Shown here: piece after piece, positions 1,525 through 34,816 of the stretch
Position numbering within the stretch: the first letter of the stretch is position 1
Layout: each line of letters starts with the position of its first letter
Source of the DNA: Deltaproteobacteria bacterium
GTDB lineage: Bacteria > Myxococcota_C > UBA6777
Assembly (NCBI GenBank): GCA_002731275.1
Contig: PCBK01000089.1
Location: 1 to 42,499 of the forward strand
DNA: 42,499 bases
Reading direction: 5' to 3'
Position numbers and translations under genes: made by a program
The notes under the pieces: model-generated
Seen by the model: the letters and a program-made list of their open reading frames with translations, nothing else
What the model was told of the DNA's origin: nothing
Database searches by the model: none

Positions 1525-3606
1525 TTACTTCCTCCTCGAAAGAACAGCCCCTTTCGCCAAAAAATCAGACTTTTTAGGCTCATTTAAACGCCCTGCGAGC
1601 TGTTGCACCAATTGTGGCAACTCTCCAAAAGGAATCGTCTTGCGAGTGAACCCCATCTTCTTGATGGTTTTCTTCACCACGAGCTTTGCCATAGGCCCAA
1701 TGTGCTTGGTATACTCTTGCTCAAGCTCCTCCAAAGCAGCCGCACAATCCGGCATATCAAGAACTTGCGCTGCAAGCTCAGGTGGTAGGTCCTCTGTCTC
1801 AGCTGAGGACAAACCATGACTCTCTCCCAAACCGCTGAGAGGTGGACCGGTCTCAGGAAGAATCGTTACAGGTGTGATACATTGCTGGATCAACGAGACG
1901 TAATGTCGTCCAATCAATACAGAGAGCATCAACTTATTGATCATTTTTTGAGAAAATACGAACAACACACCGATCTGTTCGAGCTGCCACGCCAACACAC
2001 GACCATCCTCAAACCACACATCCAACCCTCTCGCGTCAAACGGTAGTGAGAAGAATGCCTGAACAACGGGCGTAAAACGCAACACAAACCTATCCATGCC
2101 CTCCACAGGAAGACCATAGTGTGACATCAGTTGGCCATCTAAAGAGAACAACGCCACCGCCTCGACTCCAGAGACACTCGCAAGTTGGACAACAGCTTGC
2201 GCCTGCTCTTGTGATGTGTGTTGGCTGTTTTGCACGTAACCATCCAACGCCATCGACTCGCGTTGTTCGGGACAACCAAAGATCATCCCTGCGACATCAT
2301 CAAGATACGGGAACACCCCCATGACGTTCTCTTTTGTCTCGATGAATCCGTGCCGCCAGGAACCATTGGGTCTCGCCGCCTGGAGTTGTTGACAGATCCC
2401 ATCGACCAAGTGAACACCTTGCACACACACTTCGGGAAAAAACCCCTGTGAAGACAACACATGACCGGTGATATCGAGAATCACACTGCCCCGCATCGCC
2501 TCGTCTTTAAATGTTCCCGGCGCGATTTGATGGAACGCTTGTAGTTGTGTCGAAAAAATATGATCCTGCAAGAGTGCGCCATCAGGGACAGATGTATCCG
2601 CGAAAGGAAGCGGTTCGAGTGCCTTTGGATCAATAGAGGGTGGCGGTGCGGAGGACAAAGAAGGCATGTACTGCGTATCGAACTCACTCCCCGTGTCCTC
2701 CTCAGCGTCGACAAAGGTGTCTACACTTCCACCTTCGTCAGGCAACGCCTCGATCGCGACCAACAACTCACGGAGAAAATCACCTGCCGTGGGAGGCCGC
2801 TGTTCACGATTGAAGGCAAGCGCCCAGTGAATGACCTGTTCGAGGTAATGCCCATCGAGATCAGGTCGGTACATCCGCAGTGGAGTGAGATCGCCGTTGG
2901 TCTGCTTGACGAGCGCTTCGGTAAAATGGTTGGACGTCACAGGCGGCTTTCCTGCCAGCATCTCATAAATCACCGAAGCAAAAGCATAAATATCTGAACG
3001 ATGATCGACATCCTCCCAATTTCCGGCGGCTTGTTCAGGTGACATATACTGAGGCGTCCCGAGCGCAACCCCCGTCCGAGTCAGCTTGTTTGAGACCTCC
3101 TGGACCACCTTCGCGATGCCGAAGTCGAGCACCTTCACGCGCTCTTGCTTGCCGTGGCGTACACACAGAAAGATATTGTCAGGCTTTAAGTCTCTGTGCA
3201 AAATACTATTTTCGTGAGCACACTCCAAAACAGACGCGACCTGGGTGACGAAGTTCGCCAATCTCTCTTTGCCAAACGCCTGCTTCTCCTTGATCGCCTG
3301 GTAGAGACTGATGCCATCCAAAAGCTCCATGATTTGGTAGGCACCAATACCTTGTTCCCAACCAAAGTCAAGGACAAAGACGACGTTATCATGTTGCAAT
3401 GACCGAATGGCCAACGCTTCTCGACGAAATCGCTCCAGAATCTTTTTGTTGGAGGCATACTCCGGATGAAGCACCTTTACAGCGTGGTCGGTCCCCAAGA
3501 TCTTGTGACGAGCTTTATACACCACGCCCATCCCACCACTACCAATTTCCTGAAGAATTTTGACCTGGCCAATATCCCGGCCTATCAAGTCAGCTTCACG
3601 TGTCAT
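1525..3606 (-). CDS. Eukaryotic-type Ser/Thr protein kinase with roadblock-like tail
   Basis: This 693-residue kinase would transfer ATP phosphate to Ser/Thr of unknown targets. The catalytic domain is residues 14-285. It has the glycine loop G22-SGGMG-27, lysine K44, catalytic HRDLKPDN with D139, DFG with D161, and a GTPQYMSPEQ activation segment, so it should be active. No transmembrane helix or PASTA domain is seen, which makes it soluble. Residues about 350-580 hold two regions resembling Roadblock/LC7 modules (one contains VEAVALFSLDG). The last 80 residues contain a helical stretch with HIGPMAKLVVKK, a tail I have seen on other bacterial kinases. Roadblock modules commonly pair with small Ras-like GTPases, but none is nearby. 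It is divergent from the 574-residue gene, with 185 nt between them. The tail assignments are tentative. Confidence 0.93.
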   Translation of the reverse strand: MTREADLIGRDIGQVKILQEIGSGGMGVVYKARHKILGTDHAVKVLHPEYASNKKILERFRREALAIRSLQHDNVVFVLDFGWEQGIGAYQIMELLDGISLYQAIKEKQAFGKERLANFVTQVASVLECAHENSILHRDLKPDNIFLCVRHGKQERVKVLDFGIAKVVQEVSNKLTRTGVALGTPQYMSPEQAAGNWEDVDHRSDIYAFASVIYEMLAGKPPVTSNHFTEALVKQTNGDLTPLRMYRPDLDGHYLEQVIHWALAFNREQRPPTAGDFLRELLVAIEALPDEGGSVDTFVDAEEDTGSEFDTQYMPSLSSAPPPSIDPKALEPLPFADTSVPDGALLQDHIFSTQLQAFHQIAPGTFKDEAMRGSVILDITGHVLSSQGFFPEVCVQGVHLVDGICQQLQAARPNGSWRHGFIETKENVMGVFPYLDDVAGMIFGCPEQRESMALDGYVQNSQHTSQEQAQAVVQLASVSGVEAVALFSLDGQLMSHYGLPVEGMDRFVLRFTPVVQAFFSLPFDARGLDVWFEDGRVLAWQLEQIGVLFVFSQKMINKLMLSVLIGRHYVSLIQQCITPVTILPETGPPLSGLGESHGLSSAETEDLPPELAAQVLDMPDCAAALEELEQEYTKHIGPMAKLVVKKTIKKMGFTRKTIPFGELPQLVQQLAGRLNEPKKSDFLAKGAVLSRRK

Positions 3607-3791: not shown

Positions 3792-5516
3792 ATGAACACA
3801 CCTGACATCGCCGAAGCGCTCGTCGCAGCAGCTCTCATAAAGGCCGGCTATATACTCAAGCATTGGGACACACCCATCGAAGGATTCGACCTCAAACCAG
3901 ATCTACATGCCACTTTCAAAAAGCGACACCTGTTTGTCCAAGTCAATATCTCCAGCTCTCCCCAAGGTCTCCAAAAAAAATTCTGGCGAAATATCATCGA
4001 ACCCTTCGAAACCAAAGAACACTTTGGACCCCTTACCCAAAACGCCCTCGTCACCTTTACAAACATCCCCACGCTGTCCTCTCAACTTCCTCGTAGCCAC
4101 GAGATCTTCGACGCGATATGCCCCACATCGATGACGCAAAAGCAGATCAACGCCTTTCACATCCTCTTGGAAAATATCGCAGTGACAGACAAACAATCCC
4201 TCTGCTCACAGCTCACCAAGACACAAAAAACACTCCCACACACAATCCGTACAGCGCTGTCAACATTGATCACGTTCTTCAAAACGTTGAAAACACAAAA
4301 CACTTTCCCACTCCCCCCACAATCGACCTGCTCCGAAAAAACACTCCACTTCACCCACGGACTCAGTTGCCGAAAAAACACTCTGAGAGCTGCCATTCTA
4401 GGCACCGAACAACTCCATACATGGCAGGCGTTGGGACTCGGGACGTACCAACGCATCCACATCCCACATCCCACCTCCAACGATGAACACGTCCGACTGG
4501 AGCGAGCCAGTCAGCTCAATATCGACAACACAATGTGCATACAAAGAAGCCTTCGAGGCTATCACATCACTGTCGCCGATGAACTGCACGCTCTCTTTGC
4601 ACACTTTGGGGCCGCAAACATCGTCCAATGGATCGAAGAAATGGCGCACCACAACCCTGGTTTGACAGAGACAATAGAAGACGCCAGCGATCCCCAAAAA
4701 GCCCTACAAAAAGCCTCCGCGTTCAAGACATTTTGCCAGAAAACCACCCGCACACAGGTCAAACAACTCCTCAAATGTGCTGATGGCTCACGACAAGACA
4801 TCTACTCTTCGAGAAATTGGCTCCTTGAGCTGCTTTTACTCTCAAGCCAGACCTCACAAACCACCGTACAGAGTAGAATCAACCAAAATATCACACTGTT
4901 GATCAGCCGGAGACAGCGCCCACATCCAAAAACACTTCGACAACTCTTGCGCTGGCTGCTCCCACTCACAACAGAGCAAACACCCAAACACATCGCCTCT
5001 TTATGGATGCAATCCCGACGATACAACCTGGACACCCACTCGTACTTTCATCCTCTCTACACAGAACTCTTCAACTTCTTCTCATCCAAACTCACCTCAC
5101 CTCGGTGGAGCCTTGAAGGATACCCAGACAAAAACGGCGTCCCCATCCCACATTGGCTGCACAAACCCTCCTCAAAAAAAGGACAAATCCGCATGCCATT
5201 TTTGTTCACAGATCACCAAACAGGCCGCATGTTGTGCTGCAGCGTGCAATCCTGTCACGCGTCCAATGTGGGGAACAAGCGACGAGAGCTCGCTGGAAAA
5301 TCACGCATCCTCTCCTACACTCGCGGCGATCAAAGAGAGTGGCTTACAAACAAAACGCTGCGAAAGGTTCTCATCCTTGACGGAAACTGGAAGGGTCCAA
5401 AACACAACATTGATAAACACATTGAATTTTTAGTGAAGGCAGGATGGGATGATGTGTTAAGTCCTCACCACATCGACAAAATCGAGACAATATGGCGAGC
5501 ACATTTTGCAGAGTGA
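3792..5516 (+). CDS. Orphan protein with restriction-nuclease-like features
   Basis: This is a 574-residue soluble protein with no assigned family. Residues 4-18 form a helix (AEALVAAALIKAGY). It is followed by an alternating segment with PD at 35-36 and a strand containing LFVQVN about 12 residues later. That order recalls a PD-(D/E)xK nuclease core, but the usual (D/E)xK would here read QVN. The C-terminus (about 500-570) has RILSYTRGDQREWL, VLILDGNW and LVKAGWDDVL, a style I associate with the final domain of some type II restriction enzymes. The middle is helical. Four Cys/His-containing turns around 455-490 might bind a metal. No methyltransferase, helicase or toxin partner is adjacent. 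It could be a degenerate or solitary nuclease; that is inference. The coding strand is extremely A/C-rich. Confidence 0.8.
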   Translation: MNTPDIAEALVAAALIKAGYILKHWDTPIEGFDLKPDLHATFKKRHLFVQVNISSSPQGLQKKFWRNIIEPFETKEHFGPLTQNALVTFTNIPTLSSQLPRSHEIFDAICPTSMTQKQINAFHILLENIAVTDKQSLCSQLTKTQKTLPHTIRTALSTLITFFKTLKTQNTFPLPPQSTCSEKTLHFTHGLSCRKNTLRAAILGTEQLHTWQALGLGTYQRIHIPHPTSNDEHVRLERASQLNIDNTMCIQRSLRGYHITVADELHALFAHFGAANIVQWIEEMAHHNPGLTETIEDASDPQKALQKASAFKTFCQKTTRTQVKQLLKCADGSRQDIYSSRNWLLELLLLSSQTSQTTVQSRINQNITLLISRRQRPHPKTLRQLLRWLLPLTTEQTPKHIASLWMQSRRYNLDTHSYFHPLYTELFNFFSSKLTSPRWSLEGYPDKNGVPIPHWLHKPSSKKGQIRMPFLFTDHQTGRMLCCSVQSCHASNVGNKRRELAGKSRILSYTRGDQREWLTNKTLRKVLILDGNWKGPKHNIDKHIEFLVKAGWDDVLSPHHIDKIETIWRAHFAE

Positions 5517-5624: not shown

Positions 5625-6287
5625 CTACCAGGGCAAAACTTCCCCATTGGTGTGCCAAAACGTACCGGAGTTGTCGAGATTGAGTTCATCGATACGCTGG
5701 ATCAAGCCAGCAGCAGATTGATCGGCGTCAATCATGCCCTGTCGACCTGTCATATCTGTACGCACAAACCCTGGGTGCAAGATAGCGACAGAGATAGAAC
5801 GATCTTTCAGGTCATGTGCGAGGGACACACCGGCCATATTGAGCGCGGCTTTTGACATCCGATACCCATAACGACTTCCCGATGTGTTGTCCGCAATCGA
5901 ACCCATTCGGCTTGTCACGAGCGCGACTTTTGCGCCCTCTGACAGATGGGGCAAGAGCGTATGTGTGACGCGCAAAGGTCCGACACTGTTGACTTCAAAC
6001 TGCTTGAAGATCGTGTCGTAATCCATCTCCTCAAGGGTCTCACGTTTCAAAATCCCTGCGTTGTTGATCAGGATGTCGATCTTCTCGTCGCCAAGTGACG
6101 CTGCAAATGTATCGAGTGAAGCCTGATCGCTCACATCAACACCTGTCACAACCCGAACACCCAAAGCATCAAGCGCTTCACTTGACGAACGACAGAGCGC
6201 GATCACTTGCTCGCCTCGCTCTTTGAGTTGTCGACAAAATTCAAGTCCAATACCACGGTTTGCTCCGGTGACAACAACAGTCCCCAT
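5625..6287 (-). CDS. Short-chain dehydrogenase, C-factor-like
   Basis: This is a 220-residue NAD(P)-dependent SDR of the classical short type. The cofactor glycine motif TGANRGIG lies at residues 7-14, NNAG near 85, the catalytic Ser in TSRMGS, and the YxxxK pair in YGYRMSK. C-terminal HPGFVRTDM is the usual substrate-loop start. The length and motifs fit the group containing the Myxococcus C-factor (CsgA) and carbonyl reductases that act on small carbonyl compounds. The actual substrate cannot be read from sequence. AAGGAG lies upstream of the ATG at 6287. The gene is divergent from the Hsp70 pair, with about 205 nt between starts, and has no co-directional partner, so it is probably monocistronic. 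Confidence 0.93.
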   Translation of the reverse strand: MGTVVVTGANRGIGLEFCRQLKERGEQVIALCRSSSEALDALGVRVVTGVDVSDQASLDTFAASLGDEKIDILINNAGILKRETLEEMDYDTIFKQFEVNSVGPLRVTHTLLPHLSEGAKVALVTSRMGSIADNTSGSRYGYRMSKAALNMAGVSLAHDLKDRSISVAILHPGFVRTDMTGRQGMIDADQSAAGLIQRIDELNLDNSGTFWHTNGEVLPW

Positions 6288-6492: not shown

Positions 6493-8577
6493 ATGACAGG
6501 GACATCAACCAACACAACAACGCAAACCTATGTGGGCATTGATCTAGGGACAACACGTTGTGTGATGGCGAGCCAAACAGGTGATGCCTCGCCCACGATC
6601 ATCCAGTTAGAAAGTCAACAAAATGCCCTCCCTTCGCTGATCTACTTCCCAGAGGATGCACCCCCACTATGTGGGCAAGAAGCATCCTCTCTGCTCCTCG
6701 CACATCCCGAACGTGGCGGTCTTTTGTTTAAAAGAAAGATGGGCCAACCACAGTGGTACCTACAAATCGACACCACAAAGTACACAGCCAAAGCGCTCTC
6801 TACGCTTTTACTGCACCACCTTCACTCGATCTGGTGCGAACATCATCCCCAAGCAGAAGCTGTGATCACAGTTCCGGCCTACTTTGACGACATCGCACGT
6901 AGAGAGACCATCGAGGCCGCAAGAGACGCCGGATGGCAAGTCCTCGGACTGCTCAACGAACCAAGTGCCGCAGCCCTCGCCTATCACGCTATTTACCCAC
7001 CCAAAGACACGGCTCCACAATGTGGTCTGGTATTCGACCTCGGTGGTGGTACACTCGATGTCACAGTCCTGCGGCAATCATCCGATAAGATCGAGATGCT
7101 CAGCAGCACCGGCGACACAAAGCTCGGCGGCCAAGAATGGGACGACGCGATCGCCTGGAAACTCTCCAGCCAATGCGCCCGCGAATACGAATGGGACCCG
7201 CTCGACGAACCCAAGGCGTTCGAGCACCTTCGCAGACAATGTCAACAGCTGCGAGAACACCTCACAAACAAACACACAGAGACATTGTTCTTTGCGTACG
7301 AAGGGATCCAATTAGAGCTCACGATCACGCGAGAAGAGCTCGAACGATGGTGTCGTCCATTTGTCGAACGTTCCATCGCAATCGCACAGCGCGCACTCGA
7401 TGAAGCACAGCTCTCCATCTCACAACTCGATCATATCATCCTCGCTGGCGGGGGAAGTCGAATGCCTATGATCAGAGAAGCGCTTCAGGCATGGAGTGAT
7501 CTCCCCTTGGAGAGTCGATTGGACCCGGAGCGTTCGATCGCTGTTGGCGCAGCGATCAGAGCACAACAGCTCGCACAGCTCCCCCAAACCCAAAGACGCT
7601 CTGACGCTGATGCCTACCTCCCTGGGGCCCAACTCAGCGAGATAAGCGCTCACCCTTTGGGTTTCTTGATCATGAAGGACGGCACACCACACAACAAAAT
7701 CCTGTTTCCAAAGCACACACCTTTGCCAGCAAAGTACAAAAAGAGTGGATTTACCACGTCCCACAACAACCAAACGGAGATCGACATCCACCTGATGCAG
7801 AGCGACGCGCCAACACCTAAGGCCGAAACCTGTCTCGCCTCTTTCAGAATCCACGACATCCCCCCTAACCCCCAAATAGAATTGACCTTTCGATATGGTC
7901 TCAACGCTCTGATCGAAGTCGAAGCGGTCGAGCTTGAAACAACACAAACACTGCTCGTGACCCCTATCACCTCCCCATCACTCGAAACGCTTATCACACC
8001 GACGCCTAAAGATATTGTCTTCGCAATCGACTGCTCGGCGAGCATGAAGGGAAAAGCAATCCTCGAAGCCAAGCTCGCCGCCTACGAATTCCTCAACAAC
8101 ATACGCCCGGAAGGGATGCGCTTTGGACTCGTGAGCTTTGGTGATCCAGGCGTCCACGTCCGCACACAGCTCCAACCACAACCCATCGTGATACGAGCCC
8201 ATCTCGCAGAGCTACAAGCCGTTGGAACGACACCACTCGGTGCAGCCATTCACGCGTCGATAGACCTCTTTGGGACAACGCAACGCGAGAAGCATTTGAT
8301 GATCATCACAGATGGTACACCAGATAACAAAGCAGAAGCCGAAAATGCCGCAAGCCTCGCGCACAAACAAGGGATCAACATCAAAGTCATCGCAATTGGG
8401 CAGGCACTCGATCGACCATTCCTCGAACATAGGATCTGCCAAACAACTGCGGACTGTCATGCTGTTAACGACCCTATCGATCTTTCACAAGTATTCACAT
8501 CTCTCGCGTCAGAACTCTCAAAGCGCACAGGGGCCCTCACCAAATGGCCTCCCAAAAATGGGAGCAACACACTATGA
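6493..8577 (+). CDS. Hsp70-type ATPase with C-terminal VWA domain
   Basis: The reading frame opens at 6322, but the ATG at 6493 places the Hsp70 signature VGIDLGTT near the N-terminus as expected, giving 694 residues. No strong ribosome site is seen. The nucleotide-binding domain covers roughly 1-375, with the phosphate-1 loop, a phosphate-2 loop FDLGGGTLDVT and the adenosine motif ILAGGGSRMP. A beta-sandwich substrate-binding domain follows (about 380-500, beginning HPLGFLIMKDG). Instead of the helical lid there is a VWA domain from about 508. Its MIDAS motif is DCSAS (513-517), with a following TTPLG and an Asp in TDGTPDN near 606. Known Hsp70 proteins use the lid to trap peptides, so here VWA-mediated protein binding may replace that; this is inference. 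It overlaps the next Hsp70 by 4 bp. Confidence 0.92.
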   Translation: MTGTSTNTTTQTYVGIDLGTTRCVMASQTGDASPTIIQLESQQNALPSLIYFPEDAPPLCGQEASSLLLAHPERGGLLFKRKMGQPQWYLQIDTTKYTAKALSTLLLHHLHSIWCEHHPQAEAVITVPAYFDDIARRETIEAARDAGWQVLGLLNEPSAAALAYHAIYPPKDTAPQCGLVFDLGGGTLDVTVLRQSSDKIEMLSSTGDTKLGGQEWDDAIAWKLSSQCAREYEWDPLDEPKAFEHLRRQCQQLREHLTNKHTETLFFAYEGIQLELTITREELERWCRPFVERSIAIAQRALDEAQLSISQLDHIILAGGGSRMPMIREALQAWSDLPLESRLDPERSIAVGAAIRAQQLAQLPQTQRRSDADAYLPGAQLSEISAHPLGFLIMKDGTPHNKILFPKHTPLPAKYKKSGFTTSHNNQTEIDIHLMQSDAPTPKAETCLASFRIHDIPPNPQIELTFRYGLNALIEVEAVELETTQTLLVTPITSPSLETLITPTPKDIVFAIDCSASMKGKAILEAKLAAYEFLNNIRPEGMRFGLVSFGDPGVHVRTQLQPQPIVIRAHLAELQAVGTTPLGAAIHASIDLFGTTQREKHLMIITDGTPDNKAEAENAASLAHKQGINIKVIAIGQALDRPFLEHRICQTTADCHAVNDPIDLSQVFTSLASELSKRTGALTKWPPKNGSNTL

Positions 8578-10121
8578 GTGAAACATTCCCCATCTTTGGG
8601 ATCGATTTAGGAACGACAAATTCGGCCATCGCGAGAGTCGATGACCGCAACCATATCGAAGTGCTCCCCAACCAGGAAGGGGATCGACTGACCCCCTCAG
8701 CCGTCCTCTTCGAAGGAGAATCCCTTTACGTAGGTAACGTCGCGGCAGAGGCTTCAGGACACGAAGGAGGAGATGTCGTCCGCGATGTCAAACGGTTCAT
8801 CGGAGATGAGCACTGGCTTTGGGAACACAATGACATCTTTTACACCCCCTCGGACATCCACGCGATCATCCTCAAAAAGCTCGCACAAGATGCTGAACAA
8901 TACACAAGCATCCCAGTGAAAGACGCCGTGATCTCTGTGCCGGCCTACTTCAATGATCTGCAACGTAAGGCAACCCTCGAAGCCGCTTCCCTCGCAGGTA
9001 TCAGGGTCCACAGACTGATCAATGAGCCGACCGCTGCAGCCCTTGCGTACGGATATGACCTCCCCGACGAAGACGGGCTACAATTGGTGGTTGACCTCGG
9101 CGGAGGGACGTTCGACGTGACGCTCTTACAAAAAAATGGAACCACGCTCGACATCATCGCCTCAAATGGGCACGCCAGATTAGGTGGAAAAGACTGGGAT
9201 GATCGACTCATTCACTACTTCAGTGTCGACTTTGTCACCCACTACGGAGTCGACCCACTCGATGATCCCATCGCATATCAGCAGCTTCAGCAACGAACGC
9301 GCTCGACAAAACACGCGCTGTCTCGAAGAAACAAAAGCTTCCTATCACTCTCCCATGCAGGCTTCCAACACCAGCTCCAAATAGATCGAGAGACATTCGA
9401 GTCACTCGGAAAACCACTCTTGGACCAGTGCAAGGCGTTATGTGACCTCGTGCTCGAAGACGCGAACACATCTTGGGCAGCACTTCAGAACGTGTTTCTC
9501 GTAGGTGGCGCGACGAGAATGCCAAGCATACAAGCCTGGATCACCAACGCGTGGGGAAAACCAGGGATATCCACGGTCAACCCAGACGAAGCAGTCGTTA
9601 AAGGCGCCGCACTCGAAGCCGCTCGTATCGCCAACACACAACACAACCCCACTCCCCACGCACAAGCAGAACCATCACCGTACAGACTCAAAGGAAGCGT
9701 ACAGGCACGAGACATCACCAATCACACCCTTGGAATCGTCGTGCTCGACTCACTTGGGCGTTCATTTGTCGATACGTTGCTCCCACGACACACCTCCCTC
9801 CCCGCAAGCACACAGCACGTGTACTACACCGCATACGACAACCAAGTCAGCGTCACCATCCAACTCGTCGAAGGAGAGAGTAAACTCCCCGAAGAATGTG
9901 TCGAAATCGGCTCATGTGAGATCACAGGACTCCCACCGAGACCCGCAGGACAGCGCGTTGAACTACACCTCGGATATGATCTCAACGGTGCCCTCTCTGT
10001 CGAGCTTTACGATACAGGCTCCAATACAAGTCAACGCGTCGATCTCCAAAGAGGCTCCCATCGCACCGCAACCGAAACACAATGGATGAAGCGCCAACTC
10101 CAAAGCGTCCGTGTCCAATAA
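8574..10121 (+). CDS. Lidless Hsp70/DnaK-like chaperone ATPase
   Basis: This 515-residue protein starts at the ATG at 8574. That ATG overlaps the stop of the previous gene (ATGA) and has GGAG 9 nt upstream, pointing to translational coupling. The Hsp70 nucleotide-binding domain (1-375) is complete: FGIDLGTTNSA, VPAYFNDLQR, NEPTAAALAYG, DLGGGTFDVT and LVGGATRMP. It should therefore hydrolyse ATP. The beta substrate-binding domain (about 400-500, HTLGIVVLD onward) is present, but the protein ends where the alpha-helical lid of DnaK (about 638 residues) would begin. That size resembles HscC-type or other short Hsp70 proteins. No DnaJ or GrpE gene is adjacent. It probably works with its VWA-bearing partner, perhaps as a hetero-pair. 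Confidence 0.93.
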   Translation: MSETFPIFGIDLGTTNSAIARVDDRNHIEVLPNQEGDRLTPSAVLFEGESLYVGNVAAEASGHEGGDVVRDVKRFIGDEHWLWEHNDIFYTPSDIHAIILKKLAQDAEQYTSIPVKDAVISVPAYFNDLQRKATLEAASLAGIRVHRLINEPTAAALAYGYDLPDEDGLQLVVDLGGGTFDVTLLQKNGTTLDIIASNGHARLGGKDWDDRLIHYFSVDFVTHYGVDPLDDPIAYQQLQQRTRSTKHALSRRNKSFLSLSHAGFQHQLQIDRETFESLGKPLLDQCKALCDLVLEDANTSWAALQNVFLVGGATRMPSIQAWITNAWGKPGISTVNPDEAVVKGAALEAARIANTQHNPTPHAQAEPSPYRLKGSVQARDITNHTLGIVVLDSLGRSFVDTLLPRHTSLPASTQHVYYTAYDNQVSVTIQLVEGESKLPEECVEIGSCEITGLPPRPAGQRVELHLGYDLNGALSVELYDTGSNTSQRVDLQRGSHRTATETQWMKRQLQSVRVQ

Positions 10122-11166: not shown

Positions 11167-14136
11167 ATGAAAGAATGGTCTTTTGGATTTTGGCTCTGTA
11201 TCGTTTTATGTTTAGGCTTGATGGCAGGTTGCGATTGTGGCGAAGGCGGCAATCTCAACGAATATTCACAAATCAAGGTCGAACCACAAAATATCGCGTT
11301 TTCAGCGATCAGTGTAGGAGAAGAAGAGACGAAGATTGCAACTGTGACCAACACAGGACAGCTCGATCTCCGTATCGAATCCATCAAGCTGATCGAAGTC
11401 GATGAAAACACGCCCTTCTCTCTGTCTGACGCGAAAAAGTGGACCTTCCCGATCACCGTCTCAAAAGGTGAATCACTGACCATCCCCATACGCTACGCCC
11501 CCACACAAGCCGGCGCGTTCAAGGGAAAAGTAAGGCTCATCACAGACGCAAAAAATGCAGGAGATGAAGGCGAAACAGACATCAAACTCATCTCTACATA
11601 CATTGGTGGCCTGCTGCTCGCCCCCAACCCCGTCGACTTTGGGTACGTCCCCCCCAAAGAGAAAAAATCCAAAAAGGTCACCATCACCAACAATGGCCAG
11701 GCCAAAGTCACGATCACAAAGATCACCTTCAAAAAGAACGAAACAGGTGAGTTTGCTATCCTGAAGCAACCCACACTCCCCGTTGAGCTCGACGCAAACG
11801 GCGCGACAGAGTTGGAGCTGGAATACACCCCCAAAGCACCAAAAGCCAACGGCATCATCGACTTGACGCTCGATGACGGCAACACATTCTCCCTCAATCT
11901 CGTGGGTCGCATGTCCGCCCCCAACCTGGAAGTGTCGCCCGAAACCCTTCAATTTGTCGACCCACAAGTCGGCAAGATGGTCAAGGCAAAGCTTACGCTC
12001 AAAAATGTCGGAAACCTCGAACTTGTCATCAATAAAATGGACATCGACGCGACCAGCGCCGAAGGATATAGTATCCCATCACCGCCGACACTTCCGCTGA
12101 AAATTGCCCCAGAAAAAGAAGTCGTGCTCGAGGTCGCGTTTACAGCCAAAGACATCGACAAGACACAAGGCAAACTCAATATCGATAGCAACGACCCCAA
12201 CAAACCACAGGTCGTTGTCCCCCTCCTCGCGAGCGCTGGAGGCTGTGCACTCAAGGCGATTCCCGCACAACTCTCCTTTACAAAAGACGGCGTCAAGCAA
12301 GTGATTCTCGCAAACAGCGGCACCGAAAAGTGCACGCTCTCCAACATCAAATTGGACGAAAAAGGAAGCAACGAGTTCACCCTTGGCAACACCCCCAAAG
12401 CCAACCATGTCCTCGGACCCAACGAAAATGTGAAGGTGGAGGTCACGTTCAAAGGCGGCAGTAATAAGCCACAAACGAGCAACTTGCTCGTCACCTCTAA
12501 CGACCCCAAAAATCCCACTCTCACTGTCCCTATCGAGTCACGCCCCCCCAACACCAAAGCGTGCGATATCAAAATACAACCCACCATCCTACAGTTTGGA
12601 TTCGTCGGGATCGGTCAATCAAAGACCGCTGGCGTCACTGTCATCAATAACGGCTACGACGAATGTCTCATCAAGATCTCTGGTGTCTCTGATCCATTAC
12701 AGGTCTTCAGTCTGCAAACCTCCATCCCTGTGCAGGGACGCACGATCAAATCGGGTCAACAATTCAACATCGATGTGAGCTACGCACCGAGAAACTCAAC
12801 CGTCGCACAAGGGGAATTGCTACTCACAACGACAGATCCAGCGCTTCCCACAGCGCGCATTCCTTTGCTCGGCTACTCGGGACAACTTTGCCTCGAAATC
12901 ATCCCACGTCCACTCGACTTCGGCTCTATCAGAAAAGGCTGCAGAAGTCGCGACATCGACATGGATATCGTCAACACCTGCACGAGAACGGTAAGTGTGA
13001 CCGCGATCAAATGGGGAGCCACAACATCTCCTGAGTTCTCCCTGTCCCAACCAGCAAGCACACCAAGACAACTGAACTCCGGACAATCTATGGGGATCAA
13101 AGTCCGCTACACCCCCAAAGATCTGGGACAAGACAGAGGTGTCTTGCAAATCGAAAATGATGTCCCCGGCCAAACACCTATCAACGTGATCACCGCCGGC
13201 CAAGGCATCTCAACGAGCGAGCAAACAGACACCTTCACACAAGAAAAACAACCCAAAATCGACATCTTGTTTGTGATCGATGACTCCAACTCGATGAAAG
13301 ACAACCAAAACAACCTGTCGCAAAACCTCGGCTCCTTCATGAAGTGGGCCAACCAACTCAACGCCGACTACCACATCGCCGTCACCACAACAGACGCAGA
13401 CTGTGGCACCAAGTACAAATACGACCCCGCCAAGAAAATTTGCGACAGACCTTCAAGACCTGACATCCCAAACACAGGCTGTTTTCGTGGTAGCCAAAAG
13501 GTCATCACGCCGCAAACCCCCAATGGCTTGACGCTCTTCTCCAACAACGTCAAAGTCGGTCTCAACGGTTCCGGTAACGAGCAAGGTATCGAAGCCTCCT
13601 ACAAAGCACTGCAACCTGATCGCCTCAACGATTGTAACCAGGGATTCTTGCGCAACGATGCGTCTCTGTCGATCGTCTACGTTTCCGATGAATCAGACAG
13701 CTCACCGAACTCCATCGCCTTCTACGTCAAGTTCTTCTTGGGTCTCAAGAAAAACAACAACGCGCTCGTTCGGGCTTCTGCTGTTGTTGGTCCTCCTGGA
13801 AACGGCTGCGCAAATGGCTCTCAACAGGCCAAAGCCGCGCCGAGATACTGGGACATCGCGACACAAATGCAAGGCGTCACGGCTTCTATCTGCTCGACCA
13901 ATTGGTCCAACACATTAAGCCAACTCGGTGCCGTCACCTTCGGCCGCAAACGCTCATTCGCTCTGTCACAAGCGGCAGACCCCAACAGCATCGTGGTCAA
14001 AATCAACGGTCAAACCGTCACACAAGGCTGGTCCTATGACACCAGCTCCAACAGCATCGTCTTTGAAACAGGCTCCATCCCCGCTGCTGGCGCGCAAATC
14101 GTCGTCACCTACAAGACACAGTGCATCGCCCCCTGA
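11167..14136 (+). CDS. Choice-of-anchor-D repeat lipoprotein with VWA-like domain
   Basis: This is a 989-residue predicted lipoprotein. A hydrophobic signal peptide ends in the lipobox LMAGC, with Cys22 as the lipidation site. Residues about 35-690 contain roughly six Ig-like repeats of the ASPM/SPD-2/Hydin (choice-of-anchor D) kind. Each begins with a phrase like PxxLxFGxVxxGxxK and carries VTNTG or VINNG strands. A VWA-like domain follows (from about 697) with the MIDAS DDSNS at about 705 in FVIDDSNSMKDN. The last 60 residues are another small beta domain ending IVVTYKTQ. No enzymatic motif is seen. It is likely periplasmic-facing or surface-exposed and used for adhesion or assembly, as inferred from VWA plus Ig-like repeats. 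It follows the TetR gene by 213 nt. Confidence 0.9.
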   Translation: MKEWSFGFWLCIVLCLGLMAGCDCGEGGNLNEYSQIKVEPQNIAFSAISVGEEETKIATVTNTGQLDLRIESIKLIEVDENTPFSLSDAKKWTFPITVSKGESLTIPIRYAPTQAGAFKGKVRLITDAKNAGDEGETDIKLISTYIGGLLLAPNPVDFGYVPPKEKKSKKVTITNNGQAKVTITKITFKKNETGEFAILKQPTLPVELDANGATELELEYTPKAPKANGIIDLTLDDGNTFSLNLVGRMSAPNLEVSPETLQFVDPQVGKMVKAKLTLKNVGNLELVINKMDIDATSAEGYSIPSPPTLPLKIAPEKEVVLEVAFTAKDIDKTQGKLNIDSNDPNKPQVVVPLLASAGGCALKAIPAQLSFTKDGVKQVILANSGTEKCTLSNIKLDEKGSNEFTLGNTPKANHVLGPNENVKVEVTFKGGSNKPQTSNLLVTSNDPKNPTLTVPIESRPPNTKACDIKIQPTILQFGFVGIGQSKTAGVTVINNGYDECLIKISGVSDPLQVFSLQTSIPVQGRTIKSGQQFNIDVSYAPRNSTVAQGELLLTTTDPALPTARIPLLGYSGQLCLEIIPRPLDFGSIRKGCRSRDIDMDIVNTCTRTVSVTAIKWGATTSPEFSLSQPASTPRQLNSGQSMGIKVRYTPKDLGQDRGVLQIENDVPGQTPINVITAGQGISTSEQTDTFTQEKQPKIDILFVIDDSNSMKDNQNNLSQNLGSFMKWANQLNADYHIAVTTTDADCGTKYKYDPAKKICDRPSRPDIPNTGCFRGSQKVITPQTPNGLTLFSNNVKVGLNGSGNEQGIEASYKALQPDRLNDCNQGFLRNDASLSIVYVSDESDSSPNSIAFYVKFFLGLKKNNNALVRASAVVGPPGNGCANGSQQAKAAPRYWDIATQMQGVTASICSTNWSNTLSQLGAVTFGRKRSFALSQAADPNSIVVKINGQTVTQGWSYDTSSNSIVFETGSIPAAGAQIVVTYKTQCIAP

Positions 14137-30443: not shown

Positions 30444-31778
30444 TTATTTCGAAGAGCGTTTGGAGGTCTGTTTGGGGATAGGTTGTCCGTGTGGGTCTTC
30501 TTCGGGATTTTCAAGTGAAGAGACGATATTATCGAGGATGTCAGGCCCCAAAAAGTGTTCCATATCGTCAGCTGATCGGTGAACGTGATCAGGTGGTAGG
30601 TTGAGATGTTGTTCCAAAAAGGATTCCCATAGACGGTGCGCTCGGACATGGGTGATCGCTTTTTCAAAACCAGCGTTTGTGAGCCTCATCCTCGACCCTT
30701 CCCAAAGGAGCATCCCATTGGCCATCAACTGTCGCGCTGCTTTTTTGATGTAAGGGCGACTCTCAGGGTGTTTGTCAAAGACATCTTGCTCATCGATCCA
30801 ATCAGGACCGTCCTCCTGAAGACGGTACAGTGCACCCAAGATGTGTTCACGAGCCAATCGACGGGCGAGAAGCAAGCGTCTCCAGGCCTTCGGTACCATC
30901 CCATAGCTTGGCGAGAAGAAGAAGACAATCGCAAACAGCGCACCAGCCATTACCGCCATACACCCGGCGATGGAGACCTTCCCTCCGAGTCCAAGCGCCA
31001 TCATATACCCAAGGAACGCTGCGAGCGCACCGAAAAGCGCGGAGAAGAAAAGCAGCACACCAAGTCTATCGGTCAGCAAGTAAGCTGTCGCGCCGGGCGC
31101 GATGAGCATCGCGACGACGATAATGGCACCAACAGATTCAAAGGCAGCGATCGTCGTAAGCGCGACGAAACCGAGTAACAGGTAATGCATCAGACGTGGT
31201 CGCAGTCCCATCGACTCAGCGAGCGCAGGATCAAATGAGGAGACTTTGAGCTCTTTGTAAAAGAAGGTCACAAACAAGACGTTTAAGACGAACACAAACG
31301 CCAGGATCAGGAAGGCGCGTGGTCCAAGGACGAAGTTCTTCCCAAGGGTGACGACGTCAAAGGGTGCCATCGCGATCTCACCGTACAATACGCAGTCGAT
31401 ATCGAGATCCACATTCCCTGCACGGCTGACCATAATGACACCGATGGAGAACAAGACCGTAAAGACAACACCGATGGACGCATCTTCGTAGATTCGCCCG
31501 GTCTTTTTAAGCGCGTCGACCAACATTGGGGTCAAGACACCCACAACACTCGCGCCGATCAATACAGGAAAAGACGCGACGCTCCCCGTCCATATCGAAG
31601 CGACAGCGATGCCGGGCAAGACGGAGTGACTGATCGCATCTCCCATCAAAGCGAGCTTTCTAAGGATCAAGAAGCTCCCAATCAAACCAGCCGATGAACA
31701 CGCTAAGACGCCAATCAAAATGATCCACCATTGATCTGTATGCAAACCGAGAAAGGTCGTAGCCAAAAATTGTGTCAT
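30444..31778 (-). CDS. Metal ABC permease fused to a DtxR/MntR-like domain (second permease)
   Basis: This 444-residue protein's start overlaps the previous permease stop by 4 bp (ATGA). Residues 15-295 are an ABC-3 (TroC/D, ZnuB-like) permease with eight to nine hydrophobic segments and motifs such as MGDAISHSVLPGIAVA and ESVGAIIVVAMLIAPGATA. From about 300 the chain becomes soluble and matches DtxR/MntR: a winged helix (HILGALYRL, SRPYIKKAARQL, SRMRLTNAGFEKA) and the dimer/metal region AHRLWESFL, then DDMEHFL. Near the end comes EDPHGQPIP, the DtxR signature. Counterparts of MntR ligands H77, E99 (here Asp), E102 and H103 are present, but those of the first helix are not. Domain role is metal feedback by inference. 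Confidence 0.93.
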   Translation of the reverse strand: MTQFLATTFLGLHTDQWWIILIGVLACSSAGLIGSFLILRKLALMGDAISHSVLPGIAVASIWTGSVASFPVLIGASVVGVLTPMLVDALKKTGRIYEDASIGVVFTVLFSIGVIMVSRAGNVDLDIDCVLYGEIAMAPFDVVTLGKNFVLGPRAFLILAFVFVLNVLFVTFFYKELKVSSFDPALAESMGLRPRLMHYLLLGFVALTTIAAFESVGAIIVVAMLIAPGATAYLLTDRLGVLLFFSALFGALAAFLGYMMALGLGGKVSIAGCMAVMAGALFAIVFFFSPSYGMVPKAWRRLLLARRLAREHILGALYRLQEDGPDWIDEQDVFDKHPESRPYIKKAARQLMANGMLLWEGSRMRLTNAGFEKAITHVRAHRLWESFLEQHLNLPPDHVHRSADDMEHFLGPDILDNIVSSLENPEEDPHGQPIPKQTSKRSSK

Positions 31779-33091
31779 GAAGAAAGACTCCCTTCTGGCG
31801 AAGCATCAGAGATTTCATCCTGGTCAGGCTCCGCTTCGAGTAACTCTTCGAGCTGCGCGATGATCTCAGGCGACAAAAAGTGCTCCATATCCTCAGCGTC
31901 ACGCTGTACATGGTCATCGGCGATCTCAGCCTGACGGATCAGGTAAAGCTCCCAGAGACGGTGTCCGCGTACGATCTTCTCGGCGCGCTCATGTCCTTTT
32001 TGGGTTAGCGCGTATCCATTCGCGGACTCGTCGAGAAAACCTTCACGACTCAGTGTACGACACCACCCCTTTAAGGCCCCTGCTGTAAGTTGAAAATGAC
32101 GTTGCACGCGTTCAAAAGAGACAGTACTGAGCGTATCCCCCTCTTCTTCAGCCTCTTTGTAGAAGGCTTTCAGGATATTCTCGATGAGGATCTTCCTCTT
32201 CATACGTCGCTGTCTCAACCACGTGGCGAGTAGACCACGTCCCGGCGCAAATGTGAGACTCAAAAGCAACATCGCCGAAGCCGTCAACACCATAATTGGT
32301 CCAGTCGGTGTCTTCGGTGCGATCGCGGAGAAGAACGCGCCAAACATCCCCGAAAGTGCACCGACACCTGCAGACAAGACCAGCATGACACCTAATCTAT
32401 TTGTCCATTGTCTAGCTGCGGCTGCCGGTATGATCAACAACGCAGCCATCAAGATGACCCCCACAGCCTGCAAACCGATCATCACGGCGATCACGATCAA
32501 AGACGTCAACAAGGCATCGAGACGCTTGACTGGAAACCCAAGACTTTCGGCAAAACCAGCGTCAAACGACAAGACCTTGAACTCTTTGAAAAACAGGCCC
32601 ACAATCAACAACAAGAAGCAAGCCATTCCGCCGATCAACATGATGTCTTCGTAGAGCAAAAAGGCAGCCTTTCCGAACAGAAAATTGTCCAAGCCGGCCT
32701 GATTCCCGGCACCACTCTGTTGGATCACGGTCAATAAGACAATCCCACCACCAAAAAAGACAGAGAGCACAAGGCCAATCGCTGTATCATTTTTGATGCG
32801 GCTGTGTCGGGTGATCTGCATGATCAAAAAGGATCCTATCAACCCACTGACCAACGCACCGAGCAACAAACCGACGGGATGTTTACTGTGTGTCAACAAG
32901 AAGAAGACACAGACACCCGGCAAGGCGGCATGAGCCATTGCATCTCCCAGCAAACTTTGACGCCTCAACAGCGCAAATGTGCCGAGCACACCGCTGGAGA
33001 TTCCGAGCAACATACACCCAAGCATCACGACACGCCTTGTGCTCGCGTGAGGACCGAAGTACTGGAGCAGCTCGCCCAGGATATCCATCAA
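31775..33091 (-). CDS. Metal ABC permease fused to a DtxR/MntR-like domain (first permease)
   Basis: This 438-residue protein overlaps both neighbours by 4 bp (33088-33091 and 31775-31778), so the four transporter genes are likely one transcript. Residues about 10-290 form an ABC-3 family permease with [20 protein letters not shown] and [21 protein letters not shown]. Residues about 292-438 resemble a DtxR/MntR repressor: a winged helix ([38 protein letters not shown]) and the metal region GHRLWELYL with AEDMEHFL. Ligand counterparts of MntR H77, E99, E102 and H103 are visible by eye; those from helix 1 are not. Its tail after DMEHFL is acidic and lacks the PIP motif of the other permease. 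This makes a hetero-dimer of two sensor tails likely. Confidence 0.93.
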
Positions 33092-33864
33092 GCCCTCTCC
33101 TTCGCGACAACATCAGCGGCCTGACTCAATATCGCCAGACGTCCGCCGTATGTTTTGCGCAAGTTGTCCTCATTGAACACCTCTTCAATGGGTCCGATGG
33201 CCACGAGGTGCATGTTGATCATCAACGCCCAGTCAAAATACTCTCGGACGGTCTGCAGGTCGTGATGCACGACGATAACGGTCTTGTTCTGGGAGCGAAG
33301 CTCAGACAGCAATTGAACGATGGCCTTTTCCGTCACGGCGTCCACCCCGACAAAGGGCTCATCCATCAAGTACAGATCAGCCTCTTGTGCAAGCGCACGA
33401 GCCAAAAATACCCGCTGCTGCTGGCCTCCAGAGAGTTGACTGATCTGTCGATTTGCGAAGGACTCCATCCCAACCTTCTCAAGGCATCGACGAGCAACAT
33501 CCATGTCCTTTCGACCTGGTCGACGAAACCACCCCAGCTTCCCATATCGCCCCATGACCACGACGTCCAGAACTGTCGTAGGAAAGTCCCAATCGACAGA
33601 TTCACGCTGAGGGACGTACCCAACACGATGTCGATTTTGCTGATAGCTCCCACCGTACAACTTGATCCAACCACTTGAGAGGGGGAGCAAGCCAAGAATA
33701 GACTTGAGCAAGGTCGTCTTCCCGGCACCGTTGGGACCGATGATCGCGACCAGCTTCCCATCGGGCACCTCAAAGTCGATATCCCAAAGGACAGGACGAG
33801 TGTGGTAAGCCACAGTCAAATCGTGGACTTCTACGGGGGCTTTGTTGTTCTCTTTATCAACCAT
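33088..33864 (-). CDS. Metal ABC transporter ATPase (TroB/ZnuC-like)
   Basis: This 258-residue ATPase powers the adjoining permeases. It has Walker [10 protein letters not shown] (about 41-49), the Q-loop in [14 protein letters not shown], the ABC signature LSGGQQQR, Walker [10 protein letters not shown] and the switch His in VIVVHHDLQ. The [20 protein letters not shown] segment is typical of metal-importing ABC ATPases (Mn, Zn or Fe). The frame begins at 33897, but the ATG at 33864 follows the end of the binding-protein gene by 7 nt and starts near the conserved [10 protein letters not shown], so it is preferred. Its own ribosome site is weak (GTGAG), which suggests coupled translation. It overlaps the first permease by 4 bp. 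Confidence 0.95.
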
Positions 33865-33871
33865 TACATAC

Positions 33872-34816
33872 TCACTTTTTGTCTGATGCCAGCGCACGCT
33901 TCAAGGTCTTCACGTTGTGTCGGACCATCCCCAGATAAGTCCCCTCAACAGTACCTTCTGCTCCCATCGCGTCGGAGAAAAGAGAACCACCGATTTTGAC
34001 CACGTGCCCCCTGGCTGCGCAGGCTTGCATCACAGCCTTGAGTGATTTCTCCGACACTGACGACTCCACAAAGATCGCTTTGAGTTTGCTCTTCATGATC
34101 AAATCCACAACACGCTCAACATCTTTGACGCCAGCCTCCGCGACTGTACTGATCCCCTGAATCCCCACAACCTTGACCCCATAGGCCTGACCAAAGTAAC
34201 CAAACGCGTCGTGTGACGTCACCAAGATCCGTTGTGATGTCGGGATGGAAGAGACCTGTGTCTTCACCCACTTGTGCAGCGCGATGAGCTTCTCTTCATA
34301 TGCCTTAGCTCGCTTCCTGTATTCCTTCGCGTGGGCCTTATCAGCCTTCGCAAAAGCCTCTCCAATCCGACGAACGACAAATTGCCATAGAGACACGTCA
34401 AACCACACATGAGGATCATGATACCCCTGAAAAGAAGGAGGTTTTCGCAAACTCTTTTTGGGAATATTGTCCGTACACGCGACGACGTGGCGTCGGCGTG
34501 CCATCTTCTTTAACAACCCTTGCATCTTCCCTTCGAGGTGGAGGCCATTGTAGAGAATCAGATCCGCTGTCGCGAGCCTTCTCGTATCGGCGGCGGTTGC
34601 CTTGTACAAATGGGGATCAACACCAGGCCCCATCAGTCCATCAACTCGGACATGCGGACCTCCAATCACCTTCGCAGCATCTGCCAACATCCCTGTCGTC
34701 GCCACAACGTACATTTTTCCGTCCTTTTTGGACGATTGACGCGATTGTGGGCAACCACAGAGCATCCCCATCATCAACAAACACCCTAACAAAAACCAAC
34801 TATTCTTCGAGCTCAT
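33872..34816 (-). CDS. Metal-binding lipoprotein of the TroA/ZnuA cluster
   Basis: This is a 314-residue periplasmic binding protein. The signal peptide ends in the lipobox LCGC with Cys22. The cluster A-I signature is complete: [12 protein letters not shown] (His, about 69), DPHVWFDVS (second His), a [15 protein letters not shown] segment (third His) and [10 protein letters not shown] with the Asp near 280. The His-His-His-Asp set is that of TroA and ZnuA; Mn-specific PsaA has Glu at the third position. There is no long His-rich loop. The metal could be Zn or Mn. GGAG stands 8 nt before the ATG at 34816. It opens the transporter operon; a near-palindrome lies 53-66 bp upstream. Confidence 0.95.

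Follow-up and report, generated by a model that had tools for sequence, protein, structure and literature searches.

P1 and P2, two Hsp70-type proteins encoded by overlapping genes in the window (the whole stretch of 42,499 nucleotides that was analyzed, from the deltaproteobacterial genome G000), depart from ordinary Hsp70s in that a VWA domain stands in place of the helical lid in P1 and P2 has no lid at all. On the strength of sequence comparisons, we conclude that the pair probably belongs to, or near, the Hsp70 subfamily of the GAP1-N2 systems. In the reading that we favor, and to which we give about an even chance, P1 and P2 together make up a dedicated, free-standing two-subunit switch of the Hsp70 type, which is controlled by ATP, serves assembly or client capture and is kin to the GAP1-N2 Hsp70 sub-module. 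The locus comprises the following features:

5625-6287, opposite orientation to P1 and P2: short-chain dehydrogenase-type gene, upstream of P1
6493..8577, + strand: P1, Hsp70-VWA fusion of 694 aa (Pfam HSP70 and VWA; orthologue in G001)
7978..8574, + strand: VWA domain and C-terminal tail of P1, where the Hsp70 lid would be (Pfam VWA, PDB matches, AF2)
8029..8043, + strand: first MIDAS motif of P1, DCSAS, residues 513-517 (from the translation)
8549..8577, + strand: P2 coupling region, a hairpin CTCCCA-AAAA-TGGGAG that includes the RBS GGGAG, then the ATGA overlap (from the sequence)
8574..10121, + strand: P2, lidless Hsp70 of 515 aa (Pfam HSP70 positions 1-517 of 599; orthologue in G001)

A preliminary description of this DNA had P1 join the Hsp70 ATPase and beta domains to a VWA domain with an intact MIDAS that replaces the lid, and P2 as a fully equipped ATPase that starts in the P1 stop codon and ends after the beta domain; both layouts are confirmed by Pfam, the translation and the catalytic residues. 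In P1 (Pfam HSP70, E 7e-75), an NBD at about residues 13-362 and an SBD-beta at about 378-490 are followed by the VWA domain at about 507-680 (Pfam VWA, E 5e-17, residues 507-660), whose MIDAS is complete, the DxSxS...T...D pattern being formed by DCSAS, the T within 'GTTP' and the D within 'ITDG'. All three elements recur in the P1 orthologue of G001, a genome from another genus of the same family, where the first motif is DTSAS, and this motif is DxSGS or DxSAS in nine remote Hsp70-VWA fusions (see below). P2 (Pfam HSP70, E 2e-116) stops just past the beta domain, and the alpha-helical lid is absent from both proteins, the profile matches ending at the beta domain and being followed by the VWA domain in P1 and by nothing in P2. 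Both belong to PF00012, with the phosphate-binding and catalytic motifs of the NBD and an SBD-beta, and both retain D8, G10, T11, K70, R71, P143, R151, E171, D194, T199, D201 and G342 (DnaK numbering). Against the DnaK/HscA equivalogs NF001413, TIGR02350 and TIGR01991 (cut-offs of 648, 823 and 709 bits), P1 scored 249, 241 and 259 bits and P2 371, 359 and 327 bits, all below the cut-off. An AF2 model of P1 (40 Hsp70 rows) has NBD blocks mostly at pLDDT 85-97, the SBD-beta at about 62-83 and a low VWA domain, and the PDB structures that it matches best are open DnaK and then BiP, both placed above Sse1 by foldseek. The VWA segment alone gave a weak AF2 model (mean pLDDT 62) that matched VWA and integrin I-domain folds first; by sequence, the PDB entry most similar to the segment is the archaeal VWA protein 8s05 (title: ArnAB).

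As already described, the two Hsp70 genes overlap and have no DnaJ or GrpE gene beside them: the Pfam scan gave no match to either family among the scanned window proteins, and in the ATGA overlap the P2 ATG lies at 8574 and the P1 stop codon TGA at 8575-8577. A Shine-Dalgarno-like GGGAG at 8560-8564, nine bases 5' of the P2 start, sits within the small junction hairpin, whose statistical support is weak because 10 of 200 shuffles fold equally well or better (z = -1.7). An in-frame ATG at 8544, giving a P2 of 525 aa, is a possible alternative start that is less well supported than 8574. Because the upstream flanking gene is oppositely oriented and some 220 bases separate P2 from a TetR-type regulator gene downstream, P1 and P2 likely form a two-gene operon. 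Elsewhere in the window we observed, on the + strand, a 574-aa protein (3792-5516) that has no Pfam, NCBIfam or PADLOC match and adjoins a Ser/Thr kinase gene (1525-3606) and, on the - strand (30444-34816), two tandem ABC-3 metal permeases, each fused to a C-terminal DtxR-type Fe_dep_repr_C domain and accompanied by an ATPase and a ZnuA-like binding protein.

A whole-genome search retrieved a P1 orthologue in G001 (E 8e-141, 42% identity over residues 13-677), which is followed on the same 9.8-kb contig (L031), in the same order and on the same strand, by a lidless orthologue of P2 (42% identical) in which a long low-complexity insert separates the NBD from the SBD. The preliminary description had considered that the fusion might be a sequencing or assembly join of two genes, or might have no relatives; the orthologous fusion in this separate assembly rules out the former and disposes of the latter. 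The translational coupling that it also proposed is borne out in part: the ATGA overlap exists in the window pair, but a gap of 773 nucleotides separates the genes in G001, so that the pair is conserved and the coupling is not. The other three of the five phylum genomes examined have no such pair, and since they are 86-93% complete its absence from them is likely rather than certain. Between G000 and G001, P1 and P2 are 41-42% identical, as against 69-81% for four other Hsp70 orthologues of the same two genomes. Such high divergence, together with the linker loss described below, would suit decaying paralogues, i.e., Hsp70 copies that evolve fast, have almost no function left and carry a VWA tail by accident, but the catalytic residues and the MIDAS are all kept in both genera despite this low identity, the reading frames are intact and the gene order is conserved, and we find this explanation barely credible. 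A lipoprotein-like protein encoded on the + strand at 11167-14136, which has HYDIN/ASH-type repeats and resembles CglD and MIDAS adhesins in its C-terminal region, had been put forward as a possible client; no such gene lies near the pair on the 9.8-kb G001 contig, none stood out in the remote clusters, and the proposal has no support beyond proximity.

Using a search profile of the SBD-beta and VWA domains with two rows (P1 and its G001 orthologue), we found nine further Hsp70-VWA fusions, each of 679-730 aa, in eight genomes of two other phyla. They were missed by full-length or single-sequence queries: single-sequence scans of genome contigs and viral contigs gave no Hsp70-VWA fusion, and in a plasmid scan the matches were all to ordinary Hsp70s and covered query residues 14-474. 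A table of the neighbors, as suggested in the preliminary description and annotated here with Pfam, revealed that all nine accompany parts of GAP1-N2/DO-GTPase clusters and that seven of them (L098, L099, L102-L106) lie directly behind a lidless Hsp70, the gene order being reversed relative to the window pair. A GrpE-like gene precedes the remote pair in L098, L099, L102, L103 and, under the curated cut-off, L106; downstream, L099, L101 and L103-L106 encode a zinc-ribbon/FNIII (ZnR/FNIII) protein of ~1000 aa whose N-terminus is J-like, and L098 and L102 contain a protein start that resembles the start of this protein. GAP1-N2 scored above cut-off in L098, L099, L100, L102 and L103, and DO-GTPase2 in L098, L100, L102 and L106; the DO-GTPase2 match in L105 stayed below it. 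These clusters represent the GAP1-N2 GTPase systems described by Kaur et al. (2020; PMC7159879). The HSP70 passages of that paper outline a theme in which HSP70 and GrpE are accompanied by an FNIII protein with a fused DnaJ or TPR part and sometimes by another HSP70 that lacks the peptide-binding domain; their text mentions no Hsp70-VWA fusion. In one genome, G1203, two Hsp70-VWA genes (loci L099 and L100) are separated by ~14 kb; one has a lidless Hsp70 as its partner, and the other stands by itself next to a DO-GTPase2 gene and GAP1-N2.

In a tree of 38 Hsp70s, including P1, P2, the remote fusions and their lidless partners, phylum Hsp70s and E. coli DnaK, the first four groups stood together against the conventional Hsp70s and DnaK with a support of 100/100, several of the branches being long. 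Support was 57/87 for all fusions as one clade and 44/24 for P2 with the remote lidless group; a grouping of P1 with P2 was not rejected (p-AU 0.36), and P1 and P2 may be drawn together by long-branch attraction. A single fusion origin was neither shown nor rejected by a tree of the VWA domains only (p-AU 0.22). A tyrosine at DnaK position 478 occurs in P1 (2/2), P2 (2/2) and the remote fusions (9/9), as compared to 1/96 background Hsp70s and 0/25 phylum Hsp70s. The lone background case (L016/L222) is itself lidless, and its neighbors are a GrpE-like gene and genes for WD40 and FGE-sulfatase proteins. In L222 (5274-11676, - strand) the GrpE-like gene and the lidless Hsp70, a member of the odd subfamily, are followed by the WD40 and FGE-sulfatase proteins, which by eye resemble each other over some 60 residues at the N-terminus, and the locus looks like another Hsp70-linked conflict cluster; FGE-sulfatase appears, as FGS, among the effectors of such systems in the relevant passages of Kaur et al. 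(2020; PMC7159879).

We compared the residues of P1 and P2 with those of E. coli DnaK, 25 other phylum Hsp70s and a background of 96 Hsp70s. The hydrophobic interdomain linker of Hsp70 couples the ATP state to the grip on substrate, and its hydrophobic residues (VLLL/VLLLD) are lost in both P1 and P2: in alignment columns that are partly gapped, positions 390-392 are hydrophobic in 0/4 P1 and P2 sequences from the two genera versus 94/96 background Hsp70s, and among the phylum paralogues they are fully hydrophobic in 14/25, the other 11/25 having a non-hydrophobic residue at one position. As far as can be judged from the residues, this loss argues against an ordinary foldase cycle. R167 and D393 of DnaK meet the HPD motif of the J-domain; both are present in 118 of 121 other Hsp70s (93/96 of the background and 25/25 phylum paralogues) and both are intact in P2 of either genus (2/2), whereas P1 has R167G and D393E in both genera and keeps neither contact (0/2). 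These features bear on the explanation that the pair is a true Hsp70 chaperone, in which the VWA domain serves to bring in a single client or to put together a single complex while the host DnaJ and GrpE act in trans. An SBD-beta that is recognizable in both proteins, with several cleft residues retained, and the J contacts of P2 would agree with it, but the linker hydrophobics are lost in both proteins, the J contacts are lost in P1, the lids are absent and no conserved client gene adjoins the G001 pair; we consider it fairly unlikely. We also weighed P1 as an Hsp110-like nucleotide-exchange factor for P2 that substitutes for a dedicated GrpE, given that a GrpE-like gene adjoins remote pairs and none occurs in the window, and that P1 is the more divergent, J-independent member of the pair. 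Hsp110 grips its partner partly through a helical domain, which P1 lacks, the P1 model matches DnaK and BiP ahead of Sse1, and GrpE and the fusion coexist in remote clusters, all of which makes this role very improbable. Among the remote lidless partners R167 is changed in 7/7 and D393 in six or seven of the 7 (L106 has D in a smaller alignment). The J-like N-terminus of the ZnR/FNIII proteins in L103-L106 and L099 lacks HPD in 5/5, and their partner Hsp70s have a changed R167, an apparent joint loss of the J-domain contact.

The window pair is free-standing, because GAP1-N2, DO-GTPase2 and ZnR/FNIII proteins all went undetected in its own genome: a GAP1-N2 protein was found in 0/5 phylum genomes and DO-GTPase2 in neither the own genome nor G001, and the J-like ZnR/FNIII protein is represented in the own genome only by a sub-threshold fragment with stops. 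ZnR/FNIII profile matches in G003 and G001 (L127, L128) were rejected, as they cover only the N-terminal J-like region and belong to small membrane-type proteins. The J contacts kept by P2, as opposed to those changed in the remote lidless partners, are consistent with this free-standing status, and we infer that the window pair would use the general DnaJ via P2 and the remote module its own J-like partner. Kinship with the GAP1-N2 systems, themselves proposed conflict systems, raises the question of a conflict or defence module, a pared-down immune threshold switch that would keep an unlinked effector in check until infection or damage occurs. The patchy presence of the pair (2/5 genomes) and its low identity between genera relative to other Hsp70s would fit, but no effector, GTPase or GAP1 is linked to the pair in the window, PADLOC, which has no model for P1 or P2, gave no match for either, and for the parent systems themselves a role in conflict is a prediction, so that we deem this reading decidedly unlikely.

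In the assembly or client-capture switch that we favor, P2 would hydrolyze ATP, stimulated by a J-protein supplied in trans, whereas P1 would bind ATP independently of J-proteins and hold a particular partner through its metal-dependent VWA domain and its open beta cleft. P1 and P2 would meet NBD to SBD, and the ATP state of the pair would assemble or release a complex rather than serve general client folding. The HSP70 components of GAP1-N2 systems are interpreted as NTP-dependent assembly components in the HSP70 passages of Kaur et al. (2020; PMC7159879). Because the window pair is only distantly kin to the Hsp70 parts of these GTPase systems and stands alone, it may be an ATP-driven switch for assembly and not a folding chaperone of the ordinary kind. 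It would be either a leftover of the GAP1-N2 Hsp70 sub-module (GrpE/lidless Hsp70/Hsp70-VWA/ZnR-FNIII) or a relative of it that has been retained independently. The preliminary description had spoken of a two-part chaperone that recruits a client; the division into two parts finds support, their order being kept in G001 and their association mirrored by the remote pairs, and the chaperone and client roles are putative. It is conceivable, if somewhat doubtful, that the VWA domain with its MIDAS takes over the role of the lid, metal-dependent partner binding replacing lid closure in a free-standing two-subunit switch with a single J-responsive subunit. If so, the Hsp70 engine could be rewired by swapping its lid for a metal-dependent binding domain, and control by J-proteins could be divided between two Hsp70 partners; the free-standing, soluble-looking two-gene version would then be a convenient test case for the little-studied Hsp70 component of the GAP1-N2 systems.

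With DnaK, P1 and P2 have in common the NBD and SBD-beta fold and a complete ATPase site, but they are lidless, their linker is degenerate, P1 lacks the J contacts and both score far under the equivalog cut-offs. Two other Hsp70s of the same genome, C34, which adjoins a J-domain gene, and the longer C120 (807 aa), likewise either stop once the beta domain is complete or lack an ordinary lid; unlike P1 and P2, they are conserved in 5/5 genomes, take a position among ordinary Hsp70s in the tree and keep R167, D393 and L391-L/V/I392-D393. C120 (L005) and its phylum orthologues also carry a long N-terminal extension that looks PilZ-like by eye. CnuD of the CoCoNuT systems (PMC11090510) is another Hsp70 NBD and SBD linked to conflict, and some of its clusters also contain TerY-like VWA genes as separate genes; the CoCoNuT passages of that paper mention no Hsp70-VWA fusion and describe the ATPase motifs of CnuD as degenerate, whereas catalysis in P1 and P2 looks intact. 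A further close likeness is to the HSP70 theme of the GAP1-N2 DO-GTPase systems as described by Kaur et al. (2020; PMC7159879), in which two Hsp70-type proteins occur together and one is lidless, as in the window pair. The latter differs in that the other components are missing from its contig and, detectably, from its genome, in its reversed gene order and in P2 keeping the J contacts that are changed in both remote partners. The arrangement of P1 and P2 lacks the core of a predicted class of systems to which it is nonetheless related, and it is both unusual and conserved.
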